Positions 4,884 through 25,438 of a stretch of DNA of 64,000 bases are shown here, piece after piece (position 1 is the stretch's first letter; each line of letters begins with the position of its first letter). The DNA is taken from contig CATOSZ010000003.1 of NCBI GenBank assembly GCA_951812805.1, positions 2,000,557 to 2,064,556 of the forward strand, in the 5' to 3' direction. Made by a program: the position numbers and the translations under genes. Origin of the DNA: an uncultured Alphaproteobacteria bacterium. GTDB taxonomy: Bacteria; Pseudomonadota; Alphaproteobacteria; GCA-2731375. The notes beneath the pieces were generated by a model that did no database searches, had not been told where the DNA came from, and saw only the letters and a program-made list of their open reading frames with translations.

Positions 4884-5654
4884 TCAGGTCATCCAGAGGC
4901 CGCCGGTGACGTTGATCGCCTGGCCGGTCATGTAGGCCGAATCGTCGGAAGCGAGAAAACCGGCGAGCTTGGCGATGTCGTCCGGCAGGCCGGGCCGGCC
5001 GAGCGGCAGCGCGGCGCAACGCTCCGCCGCCGAGGGCACGCCGCGGCGCGCGTTCTCCTGGTCGGCCGCGTCCCGCATCCGGGTCTCGACGATGGTGCCG
5101 GGGCATATCGCGTTGACGCGCACGCCGCCGGATCCGAGTTCCATGGCGAGCGTGCGGGTCAGCGAAATCACCGCCGCCTTGGTCGCGCCGTAGCCGCCGT
5201 AGTCGACCATCGCCGACTTGCCGACCCAGGAGGCCATGTTGACGATCGATCCCCGGCCGCGGGCCAGCATGTCCGGCGCCACGACCTGGGCACCGTGCAG
5301 CACGCCGTCGACATTCACCGCGAACTGGCGCCGCCAGTCCTCGGACTCCATCTCCAGCAGTGCGGCGATCCTGAGGATGCCGGCGTTGTTGACCAGGATG
5401 TCCACGCCGCCGAGCGCCGCGACGGCCTCTGCGTGCGCGGCGGCGAAGGCGGCCCGGTCGGCGACGTCGGCCGCGACCCGCGCCGCGCGCCGGCCATATG
5501 CCTCGATCTCCGCCACGGTCGCTGCCGCCGCATCTTCGTCCAGGTCCAAAATCGCCACGTCGGCGCCCTGCTCGGCCAGCCGCAAGGCGATGCCGCGCCC
5601 GATGCCGACGGCGGCGCCCGTCACCAGGGCCACCCGGCCCGAAAGATCGCTCAT
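4884..5654 (-). CDS. SDR family oxidoreductase (FabG/3-oxoacyl reductase-like)
   Basis: 256-residue classical short-chain dehydrogenase. The cofactor motif TGAAVGIG is near residue 12, NNAG in the middle, and the catalytic Ser (NMASW) and Tyr-x3-Lys (YGATK) are all present. The C-terminal I-N-V-T-G-G is typical of FabG-like members. Start is the ATG at 5652-5654, preceded by a purine-rich ribosome site. It lies 13 bases after the exonuclease III gene and probably shares its transcript. Substrate is unknown; the surrounding genes suggest oxidation of a catabolic hydroxy intermediate. Confidence 0.87.
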   Translation of the reverse strand: MSDLSGRVALVTGAAVGIGRGIALRLAEQGADVAILDLDEDAAAATVAEIEAYGRRAARVAADVADRAAFAAAHAEAVAALGGVDILVNNAGILRIAALLEMESEDWRRQFAVNVDGVLHGAQVVAPDMLARGRGSIVNMASWVGKSAMVDYGGYGATKAAVISLTRTLAMELGSGGVRVNAICPGTIVETRMRDAADQENARRGVPSAAERCAALPLGRPGLPDDIAKLAGFLASDDSAYMTGQAINVTGGLWMT

Positions 5655-22597: not shown

Positions 22598-23644
22598 ATG
22601 GGCCTCGCCTCGAAACGCCATACCGTCGAAGACGTCGTCCAGGCGCAGGAATTCTTCCACTCCCGCGGTTGGAGCGACGGGCTGCCCGTCGTGCCGCCGA
22701 CCGCCGCGGCGGTCGAGGCCTGCCTCGAGTGGGCGATGCTGCCGCCGGAACATCTGGTCGGCATCGAGCCGGTGCGCGAACGGCCGATCACGGCGGAAAA
22801 GCTGGCGGTCAACGCGGTGATGGCCGGCTGCCTGCCGATGCATTTCCCCGTCGTCGTCGCCGCCTTCACGGCCATGCTGCAGGAGCCCTTCATGCTGCAC
22901 GGGCCGACGGCGAGCACCGGCGGCTGCGCCATCCTGATCGTCATCAACGGTCCGGTCCGCGACGAACTCGGCATGAGCGGCAGCTTCAATGCGCTTGCCG
23001 GCTCGGACCGGGCGACCACGGTGATCGGCCGGGCGATCCGGCTGGTGATCTACAACCTGCTGGACGCGCGGCCGGGGGACGTCGACCGTTCCACCCTCGG
23101 CCATCCGGGCAAGTTCAGCTATTGCATCGCCGAGGACGAGGGCAATTCGCCCTGGAGCCCGCTGGCGGCGGACTTCGGCGTGCCGGACGGCGCCTCGGCG
23201 GTCACCGTCATGGCGGCCGGCGCGCCGCGCCAGATCATGAACGAATGGACGACGGAGCCCGAGCGCATCCTCGATACCTTCGTCGCCGAGATGCGGGCCA
23301 ACATGCGGCATTATTCGATCTGGCCCGGCAACTACGCCATCATCGTGCCGCCGCAACTGCGCAGCCATTTCGAGGACGCGGGCTGGTCCAAGGCCGATAT
23401 CCGCAACTACGTCCACGCCACGGCCAAGATCCGCCGCGGCGAATGGCATGAGTGCGGCAAAGGCGCCGTGGTGGGCGACCGGGGCGAGCGGGAGTATGGC
23501 GCGCTGTCGAAGCCGGAAGACCTGCTGGTCATCGCCGCCGGCGGGCCGGCCGGCGGTTTCGGCGCCATCATCCCGCCCTGGTACGGAAACAAAAGCCACG
23601 CGGTCACCATTGCCATAGGCGCCTGCGTGGATTGCGAGATTTGA
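22598..23644 (+). CDS. Conserved hypothetical protein, partner of the UGSC selenoprotein
   Basis: 348-residue cytoplasmic protein. The N-terminal block R-G-W-S-D-G-L-P-V-V-P-P-T is a pattern I associate with uncharacterised proteins encoded beside UGSC-type proteins. It has the middle block G-P-T-A-S-T-G-G-C-A-I and ends with C343-V-D-C346-E-I, a possible redox or metal CxxC right at the C-terminus. It starts at ATG 22598, 5 bases after the LLM gene, and ends 21 bases before the selenoprotein. It may form a complex or redox pair with the Sec protein; that is inference. No named function. Confidence 0.8.
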   Translation: MGLASKRHTVEDVVQAQEFFHSRGWSDGLPVVPPTAAAVEACLEWAMLPPEHLVGIEPVRERPITAEKLAVNAVMAGCLPMHFPVVVAAFTAMLQEPFMLHGPTASTGGCAILIVINGPVRDELGMSGSFNALAGSDRATTVIGRAIRLVIYNLLDARPGDVDRSTLGHPGKFSYCIAEDEGNSPWSPLAADFGVPDGASAVTVMAAGAPRQIMNEWTTEPERILDTFVAEMRANMRHYSIWPGNYAIIVPPQLRSHFEDAGWSKADIRNYVHATAKIRRGEWHECGKGAVVGDRGEREYGALSKPEDLLVIAAGGPAGGFGAIIPPWYGNKSHAVTIAIGACVDCEI

Positions 23645-23665
23645 ACAACGAAGGAAGCTAAAGCC

Positions 23666-24196
23666 ATGAGTCTGGAAATCCTGGATCCGACCCACGAGGG
23701 GAGCAGCGTCGCCTTTCAGGCCGCCGCCCGCCTCGCCAGCCTGGAGGGCGCGCATATCGCGGTGCTGTCCAACGGCAAGAAGGGCACGATCCCGTTCTTC
23801 AACGCGTTGGAGCGCGAGCTGATCGAAACGCACGGCGCCGCCACGGTCACCCGCCTTACCAAGATGAACTATTCGGCGCCGGCTGAGGCCGGGCTGCTGG
23901 ACGACGCCCAGCGCTGGAACGCTTTGGTCGCCGGTATCGGCGATTGAGGCAGCTGCTCGTCGTGCAGTTTGCATGACGCGATCATCGGCGAACGTCTCGG
24001 CCTGCCCTCGGCCGGCATCATGACCGACAAGTTCATCAGCGCGGCGGAGCTGATGGCCCGTGTGCTCGGGGCGGAGGGCTATCCCTTCGTCACGATTACG
24101 CATCCGATCTCCAGCGCCGGCGAGGCGGCGCTCGCGGAACAGGCGCGAATCGCAGCGGCCCGCGCGCGCGACATCATCCTCGGGGCCAACGCCTAG
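23666..24196 (+). CDS. UGSC-type selenoprotein with in-frame TGA (Sec94)
   Basis: One reading frame of 176 residues interrupted only by TGA at 23945-23947, codon 94. Around it the translation is G-D-[U]-G-S-C-S-S-C-S-L-H-D, giving U94-x2-C97-x2-C100. The sequence after the TGA stays in the same frame, keeps protein-like composition (G-L-P-S-A-G-I-M-T-D-K-F) and ends 3 bases before the next gene. The UGSC-motif family is a bacterial selenoprotein family I know from metagenomic surveys, with Cys forms in other species. ATG 23666 follows AAGGAAG. If TGA were a stop, a 93-residue stub would remain and the second half would have only TTG 23969 without a ribosome site. A thiol/selenol redox role is likely. 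No Sec machinery gene lies in the window. Confidence 0.85.
23945..23990 (+). promoter_or_regulatory. Sec-specifying TGA and candidate SECIS stem-loops
   Basis: Two small hairpins follow the TGA. One pairs 23949-23956 with 23964-23972 (8 pairs, one G-U and one bulged T), loop TCGTCGT; its loop begins only 9 bases after the TGA, closer than usual. The other pairs ATGA (23973-23976) with TCAT (23982-23985) around loop CGCGA; the loop begins 30 bases after the TGA and has G in its second place, as bacterial SECIS elements usually do, but the stem is short. I cannot choose between them by eye. Confidence 0.4.
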
Positions 24197-24199
24197 GGT

Positions 24200-25438
24200 A
24201 TGAACCGTATTCTCGACGGCGTGCGCGTGCTCGACCTCTCGCGCTTTCTCGCCGGGCCGCACGCGACGCTGCTGCTGGCCGGCATGGGGGCGGAGGTCAT
24301 CCGGATCGACGATCCGGCGGCGGGTGACTCGCTCTCGAACAGTCCGGTCTTCCACGGTCGCGAGGGGCCGTCGATCGAACGCCGGCGGGAGGACGACCTC
24401 GGCATCGCCTTCCTCAAGCGCTGCCGCGGCAAGCGCTCGATCTGCCTGGACCTGAAGTCACCGGAGGGGCGCGAGCTGTTTCTCGGCCTCGTCGAGACGG
24501 CGGACGTGGCCGTCGAAAATTTCTCCGTCGGCGTGATGGCCCGCCTCGGCCTCGACTGGCCGCGCCTGCAATCGGTCAATCCGCGCCTGGTCCATTGCGC
24601 CCTCACCGGCTTCGGCTCCAGCGGCCCGGACAAGGGCCGGCGCGGCTACGACGTCACCACCCAGGCGATGAGCGGGTTGATGAGCATCACCGGCGCCCCG
24701 GACGGCCCGCCGATGAAGGCGGGCTCGCCGCTCGCCGATACCATCGGGGCCGGCTTCGCCGTCTCCGGCATCCTCGGCGCGCTGTTCCACCGGGAGCGGA
24801 CCGGCGTCGGCCAGTTCGTCGACGTCTCCATGACCGACGTGTTGTTCAGCCTGCTGTTCGACGAGCCGCTCGACTGCTACGAGGCCCTCGGCCTCTCGCC
24901 CCGCCAGGGCAACCGGGTCATGCGCTTCTCGCCGATGAACGCCTATCCGACGGCCGACGGCTGGATGGTGATCTGCTGCGGCACCGAGGCGATGTGGCGC
25001 GCCATCTGTGCCGAGATGGGCCGCGACGACCTGGCCGAGCATCCCGATTGGGGCCGCATGACCTGGCGGGTCGCCAACAACGAGGCGGTCGACGAGCTGA
25101 TGGTCGCCTGGACCCGCGCCTCGACGAGTGCGGAACTCGACCGCCGATTGGACGCGGCCGGCGTCGTCGCCAGCCCGGTGCAGGACATCGAGGCGCTGTT
25201 GCAATGGCCGCACCTGCGGGCCCGAGGCATGATCCAGCCGGTAGCGCATCCAACGCTCGGCCCCTTGCCGGGCCTGCACGCCGCCGGCTTTCCCCTGAAG
25301 TTCAGCGCGACGGAGGCCGGTTACGACGGCACGGCGGTACCGACCGGCGCCGAAACGCGGGAGATCCTGGCCGAACGGCTTGGCCTCGATGCCGAGCGGC
25401 TCGACGAATTGGCGGCAGCCGGCGTGATCAATCGCTGA
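24200..25438 (+). CDS. CaiB/BaiF (family III) CoA-transferase
   Basis: 412-residue class III CoA-transferase. G-V-R-V-L-D-L-S-R-F-L-A-G-P is the standard N-terminus; the G-Y-D-V-T-T-Q-A-M-S-G segment near residue 155 carries the catalytic Asp that forms the aspartyl-CoA mixed anhydride. Full length. It begins 3 bases after the selenoprotein stop, so it is the last gene of that operon and may activate the product or substrate as a CoA thioester (inference). Its end overlaps the convergent VOC gene by 11 bases. Confidence 0.88.
   Translation: MNRILDGVRVLDLSRFLAGPHATLLLAGMGAEVIRIDDPAAGDSLSNSPVFHGREGPSIERRREDDLGIAFLKRCRGKRSICLDLKSPEGRELFLGLVETADVAVENFSVGVMARLGLDWPRLQSVNPRLVHCALTGFGSSGPDKGRRGYDVTTQAMSGLMSITGAPDGPPMKAGSPLADTIGAGFAVSGILGALFHRERTGVGQFVDVSMTDVLFSLLFDEPLDCYEALGLSPRQGNRVMRFSPMNAYPTADGWMVICCGTEAMWRAICAEMGRDDLAEHPDWGRMTWRVANNEAVDELMVAWTRASTSAELDRRLDAAGVVASPVQDIEALLQWPHLRARGMIQPVAHPTLGPLPGLHAAGFPLKFSATEAGYDGTAVPTGAETREILAERLGLDAERLDELAAAGVINR

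Follow-up and report, generated by a model that had tools for sequence, protein, structure and literature searches.

A UGSC selenoprotein of an uncultured alphaproteobacterium, its conserved partner gene and a possible distant kinship with GrdB and PrdB

Described UGSC proteins and the gene under study

UGSC proteins have been a described family of selenoproteins since at least 2008, and the literature credits them with a thioredoxin-like fold (PMC2398784, PMC13188914). A fusion of UGSC to a domain named "Unknown_1" is reported in the 2008 Global Ocean Sampling (GOS) work (PMC2398784). This domain may be the same as the partner protein treated below; the accessible parts of the UGSC literature describe neither a partner gene nor a relation to GrdB or PrdB (PMC2398784, PMC13188914). 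GrdB and PrdB (PF07355), with which UGSC is compared here, are selenocysteine (Sec) subunits of the clostridial glycine/betaine/sarcosine and D-proline reductases.

The UGSC gene under study lies at 23666-24196 on the plus strand of a 64,000-nucleotide stretch ("the window") from an uncultured alphaproteobacterium (GCA_951812805.1, contig CATOSZ010000003.1). Judged from its sequence it is a genuine selenoprotein gene, of a family that had been described already, so that the original prediction oversold its novelty; the same prediction undersold that the gene is one of eight copies in its genome and inseparable from the gene upstream. New here are the fixed partner, the predicted fold and a specific, testable kinship. 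The best explanation of the whole, to which we assign a probability of roughly 60%, is a two-subunit, thioredoxin-fed, GrdB/PrdB-like reductase encoded in catabolic gene clusters.

Selenocysteine coding in the UGSC gene

The gene begins with ATG at 23666, a few bases 3' of a likely ribosome-binding site read in the sequence (AAGGAAG, 23652-23658, plus strand), passes through TGA at codon 94 (23945-23947, plus strand) and ends with TAG at 24194-24196, all in one frame of 176 codons as originally described. Translated with TGA as Sec, the product has 176 residues including Sec94 and the motif GIGD-U94-GSC97-SSC100-SLHD. Without read-through, the mechanical list of open reading frames (ORFs) holds a 93-residue ORF and a TTG-started ORF of 75 residues, which agrees with the expectation that standard callers would report a 93-residue fragment. 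The read-through protein matches the Pfam family UGSC (PF24696; E=3.6e-42, 144.9 bits against a cut-off of 25, positions 1-169 of 172) and exceeds the gathering threshold along its whole length, while the halves on either side of the TGA each match a UGSC profile built in this analysis; the UGSC motif had thus been recognised correctly. Motif, length, Sec position, whole-length profile match and the habit of using Sec in bacteria are shared with the family PF24696/NF041046. The protein differs from the curated NCBIfam equivalog (UGSC_fam, NF041046) in scoring 107.5 bits, under the cut-off of 125, and is therefore filed in the Pfam family and not in the narrower equivalog.

Homologues were taken from two samples: 289 sampled genomes of the class Alphaproteobacteria (the class scan), and the 80 closest relatives, which are loci from named bacterial and archaeal genomes found by peptide patterns that leave out the Sec codon. 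Each of the eight UGSC genes of the genome possesses one in-frame TGA at the same place of the motif. UGSC occurs in 28 of the 289 class genomes, and 77 of the 78 matches contain a single in-frame TGA; the exception, L068, has Cys at the Sec site (ANCGSCTGW). Among the closest relatives the homologous codon is TGA in 80/80 with intact coding downstream, and in remoter homologues on plasmids of haloarchaea, Arthrobacter, Roseovarius and Variovorax it encodes Cys. The search for homologues with Sec or Cys at codon 94, suggested at the outset, therefore turned out in favour of Sec.

The genome contains a complete Sec-decoding machinery (SelA, SelB, SelD and tRNA-Sec), and all the genes that the original prediction had recommended looking for are present. 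The tRNA-Sec scores 70.2 bits with a tRNA-Sec model and is called tRNA-SeC by ARAGORN; selA scores 572 bits and is followed after 20 nucleotides (nt) by a selB match, and selD is located about 1.4 kb from the tRNA-Sec gene. Of nine matches to the tRNA-Sec model in total, only this one is tRNA-Sec according to ARAGORN, and seven overlap genes of tRNA-Ser, tRNA-Tyr, tRNA-Gly or tRNA-Leu. In the class scan selA exceeds its cut-off in 41 of 289 genomes, so the remark that Sec proteins are uncommon in alphaproteobacteria was a fair one. It is present in 27 of 28 genomes with UGSC as against 14 of 261 without (Fisher p=1.3e-26), and the sole UGSC genome without selA above the cut-off is 77% complete.

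A hairpin resembling a bacterial selenocysteine insertion sequence (SECIS) occupies 23958-23978 on the plus strand. It starts 10 nt after the TGA and consists of a 9-bp stem and an apical loop GUU (23967-23969), so that, as in bacterial SECIS elements, it stands just 3' of the TGA and a G opens its loop. The stem pairing is kept by covariation in the eight paralogues (GTGCA/TGCAT to GTGGA/TCCAT), and two of them possess another G+C-rich stem (CGCCCGC/GCGGGCG). Judged by how the adjacent partner genes use their codons, AGT would be expected for the loop codon Ser101 in 6.1/78 genomes and TTG for Leu102 in 9.8/78; the observed counts are 80/80 and 55/80. The local hairpin has a folding energy of -12.0 kcal/mol, a stability equalled by about 9% of its synonymous variants, and for the 51 nt that follow the TGA the free energy does not fall below that of shuffled sequences. 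Rfam, a collection that need not contain this bacterial SECIS, gave no SECIS or other credible match when the window and the TGA region were scanned. Stability being unremarkable, the SECIS assignment draws on conservation (synonymous codons and covariation) and not on free energy; with this basis, the SECIS check proposed earlier came out positively.

The two ORFs of the mechanical list would also be expected if the TGA were a true stop, or an error of sequencing, with a pseudogene remnant or a separate gene following it. A sequencing error is untenable because eight own copies and 80 other genomes carry the TGA, and this explanation as a whole, against which intact downstream coding in all relatives, the full Sec machinery and the synonymous constraint in the SECIS region also speak, is hardly credible. 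Decoding of the TGA at 23945-23947 as Sec, which would be carried out by the genome's own SelA, SelB, SelD and tRNA-Sec with the aid of the downstream hairpin, is on sequence evidence almost certain.

The partner gene and its operons

The gene upstream of UGSC (22598-23644, plus strand) encodes a partner protein of 348 residues with the motif RGWSDGLPVVPPT in its N-terminal region and CVDC at its C-terminus. It has no match in Pfam or NCBIfam, and scans of 43 homologues gave only scattered matches above E=0.01. A partner is present in 78 of the 80 relatives' loci, nearly always directly upstream of UGSC, and accompanies the Cys homologue L068 as well. All ten partner copies of the genome fall within its eight UGSC loci; the partner is fused behind UGSC at three of these (L023, L029 and L030) and separate at five. 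From such pairing and fusion, UGSC and its upstream partner very probably constitute one two-subunit unit.

In the partner subfamily of the window the CVDC end is invariant (C343 and C346 in 43/43 aligned partners), and 72 of 78 partners have a CxxC among their final 15 residues. Partners at the loci L026 and L027 of the same genome lack the CxxC tail and possess a fused N-terminal thioredoxin-like domain with CPTC; the genes concerned are L033:6385-7836 (beside L026) and L034:8385-9818 (beside L027). Eight more loci, L119 and seven from the class scan, have this CPTC domain next to UGSC. The N-terminal CPTC domain and the C-terminal CxxC look like alternative electron inlets.

Further partner paralogues, at L037:9573-10751 and G000:C8:21312-22100, are arranged in tandem with partner-UGSC units, which suggests partner heteromers. 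A proprotein like GrdE or PrdA, which yield a pyruvoyl group at a conserved Cys, was considered for the partner and ruled out, as the TT/ST-rich loop of the own paralogues has no conserved single Cys (or Ser) that would be suitable. Pfam scans, the sole test of direct homology, gave none to GrdE or PrdA, and a sequence search of the PDB returned no matches to the partner. Structural matches to fumarase, cyanuric acid hydrolase and chorismate-mutase-like folds are too weak for a fold assignment.

UGSC genes often stand among catabolic genes. In the window the UGSC stop codon is followed after 3 nt by a gene for a CaiB/BaiF-type (family III) coenzyme A (CoA) transferase (24200-25438, plus strand; PF02515, E=7e-115), a probable member of the operon. 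In 24 of the 80 relatives a CaiB gene occurs at most 6 kb from UGSC, and in 11 of these it is the immediate neighbour on the same strand; other neighbours are short-chain dehydrogenase/reductase (SDR), aldehyde dehydrogenase, enoyl-CoA hydratase and luciferase-like genes.

Thioredoxin genes accompany related UGSC operons. The order is trxB-trxA-partner-UGSC in Arthrobacter (Cys form) and partner-UGSC-trxB in Roseovarius; trxB lies a few genes upstream of UGSC in Variovorax, and the present genome has a TrxB-like gene downstream of one fused Sec copy. Clostridial grd operons open with trxB-trxA-grdE. Genes annotated as phosphosulfolactate synthase near Cys-form UGSC genes (L197:5672-6460 in Arthrobacter and L198:5500-5967 in a haloarchaeon) are a possible hint at the substrate.

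UGSC would be the catalytic subunit and the partner the second subunit of one enzyme, with UGSC in a role like that of the Sec subunit (GrdB/PrdB) of clostridial glycine or D-proline reductase. In this scheme the partner would hold a small catabolic substrate, and the selenol of UGSC, positioned where a helix begins, would attack an activated C-X bond in it, with Cys97 and Cys100 as the resolving thiols (UxxCxxC). The selenenyl-sulphide formed would be reduced again by thioredoxin by way of the partner's C-terminal CVDC or the fused thioredoxin-like domain.

Predicted fold and comparison with GrdB and PrdB

The AlphaFold model of UGSC (m740c8a50b0b5, from 43 sequences) has a mean confidence (pLDDT) of 88.6 and a predicted template modelling (pTM) score of 0.84. 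Strands and helices alternate throughout, and Sec94 is placed between the third strand (residues 86-92) and the helix 95-110. The structure matches listed include flavodoxin, lumazine-synthase, response-regulator and periplasmic-binding-like folds, with Z up to 10.2; none among those listed is a thioredoxin chain, an absence that is not proof. Foldseek matches to crystal constructs of G-protein-coupled receptors (GPCRs) probably concern flavodoxin fusion partners and mean a flavodoxin-like shape only. Sequence matches of UGSC in the PDB to three pentatricopeptide-repeat proteins (E about 1e-6, about 25 residues) were set aside as composition-driven, none of them passing as a matched stretch. 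The model and the profile comparison given below indicate a Rossmann/flavodoxin-like fold with a distant relation to GrdB/PrdB, and the topology of the model together with the listed matches renders the thioredoxin-like fold of the literature doubtful.

UGSC shares the UxxC motif with thioredoxin-like, peroxiredoxin-like and DsbA-like selenoproteins and differs from them in predicted fold and gene context. It might nevertheless be a thioredoxin-fold thiol oxidoreductase that reduces disulfides or peroxides, its likeness to GrdB/PrdB being confined to a short UxxC-helix motif. This is decidedly unlikely: apart from the predicted topology, an hhalign comparison of UGSC with a thioredoxin-like domain remains at background, and UGSC nearly always occurs with a large partner, often in catabolic clusters.

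For GrdB/PrdB, the UGSC profile was compared by hhalign with PrdB-like proteins of the PF07355 type. P values are 9.4e-6 without masking, 1.1e-4 for all UGSC once the Sec column is masked, and 2.2e-6 for the TPAV-type subgroup under the same masking. In the alignment UxxC falls on UxxC, and the match extends over G(I/V)PT as far as the following strand; the score is 46.7 for PrdB-like proteins, compared with 26 for the best of 36 unrelated control families. UGSC thus resembles GrdB/PrdB in its UxxC at a strand end before a helix, in the G(I/V)PT strand pattern, in a fixed second subunit and in the thioredoxin genes of related operons (trxB-trxA in Arthrobacter). It differs in lacking a PF07355 match, in another partner that has no conserved pyruvoyl-type Cys, in its occurrence in catabolic clusters of mostly non-clostridial organisms, and in that no GrdA-like protein was seen adjacent. 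A sequence search of the PDB with PrdB-like proteins found no solved GrdB/PrdB relative.

The genome contains four more selenoprotein genes, of the PF07355 family (L040-L043; G000:C8:328150, C3:1748973, C3:1462852 and C2:138247), with UPNC, UPFC or UPVC at an in-frame TGA. These PrdB-like proteins have Sec in common with UGSC and a distant profile similarity in register; unlike UGSC, they belong to PF07355 and lack a UGSC partner gene within roughly 6-7 kb.

Several results weigh against a GrdB/PrdB-like reductase. The hhalign probability varies between 29 and 92% with the masking and the subgroup chosen, and the Pfam scan found no PF07355 match of UGSC above the gathering score, for which reason the kinship is taken as distant homology and not as membership. 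No trxB turned up in the neighbourhood of any of the 80 closest Sec-type relatives. Structure matches of the partner are weak (fumarase/Toblerone-like, template modelling (TM) score about 0.27). Branches in Sporomusa and Vibrio carry neither Sec nor Cys at the site: in the UGSC-partner fusions L203:8317-10041 (Sporomusa plasmid) and L204:6371-8056 (Vibrio plasmid), which lie near aconitase X and DUF126 genes, MGTS replaces UGSC. By sequence the redox residue is gone from this branch; redox enzymes therefore cannot make up the whole family, and some members do other chemistry.

The fusions without Sec and Cys beside aconitase X would also suit a non-reductive pair, a lyase, isomerase or transferase whose selenol works as a covalent nucleophile, the thioredoxin genes having no other task than to keep it reduced; the CaiB CoA-transferase and other CoA-ester genes close by and the weak fumarase-like matches of the partner point the same way. 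UxxCxxC, the CxxC tail of the partner, the fused thioredoxin-like domain and trxB/trxA suggest instead a turnover of reducing equivalents, and we regard non-reductive chemistry as rather unlikely, less so than a thioredoxin-fold oxidoreductase. Returning to the two-subunit reductase, chemistry of the GrdB/PrdB kind, inferred together with its redox direction and electron route, has about an even chance of being correct. Slightly less secure, and put forward tentatively, is the wider proposal that UGSC and partner, as a branch related to GrdB/PrdB, make up a so far unrecognised family of reductases or reductive lyases driven by thioredoxin. The family would be spread through mostly uncultured Alphaproteobacteria, Acidimicrobiia, SAR324 and haloarchaea (Cys form), and would have diversified within single genomes, here into eight copies, to serve several catabolic pathways in parallel.

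Partner, predicted fold and likely electron donor make UGSC, a protein that gene callers halve, a testable two-subunit enzyme. If the link to GrdB/PrdB is true, marine and soil bacteria possess, in their catabolic clusters, a relative of the chemistry known from anaerobic Stickland fermentation.

The IncP plasmid p2-T1 of Acidovorax sp. T1 (L201) contains a fused UGSC-partner gene with in-frame TGA that is unannotated there; the plasmid is conjugative, the gene lies near IS1071 and IS91-like transposases, and it would be useful only in hosts with Sec machinery. Upstream of the fused copy L023 of the present genome, an exact direct repeat of 300 nt (L031:1984-2283 and 5074-5373, 3090 nt apart) overlaps the starts of two 532-residue ORFs with like beginnings, probably transposases.
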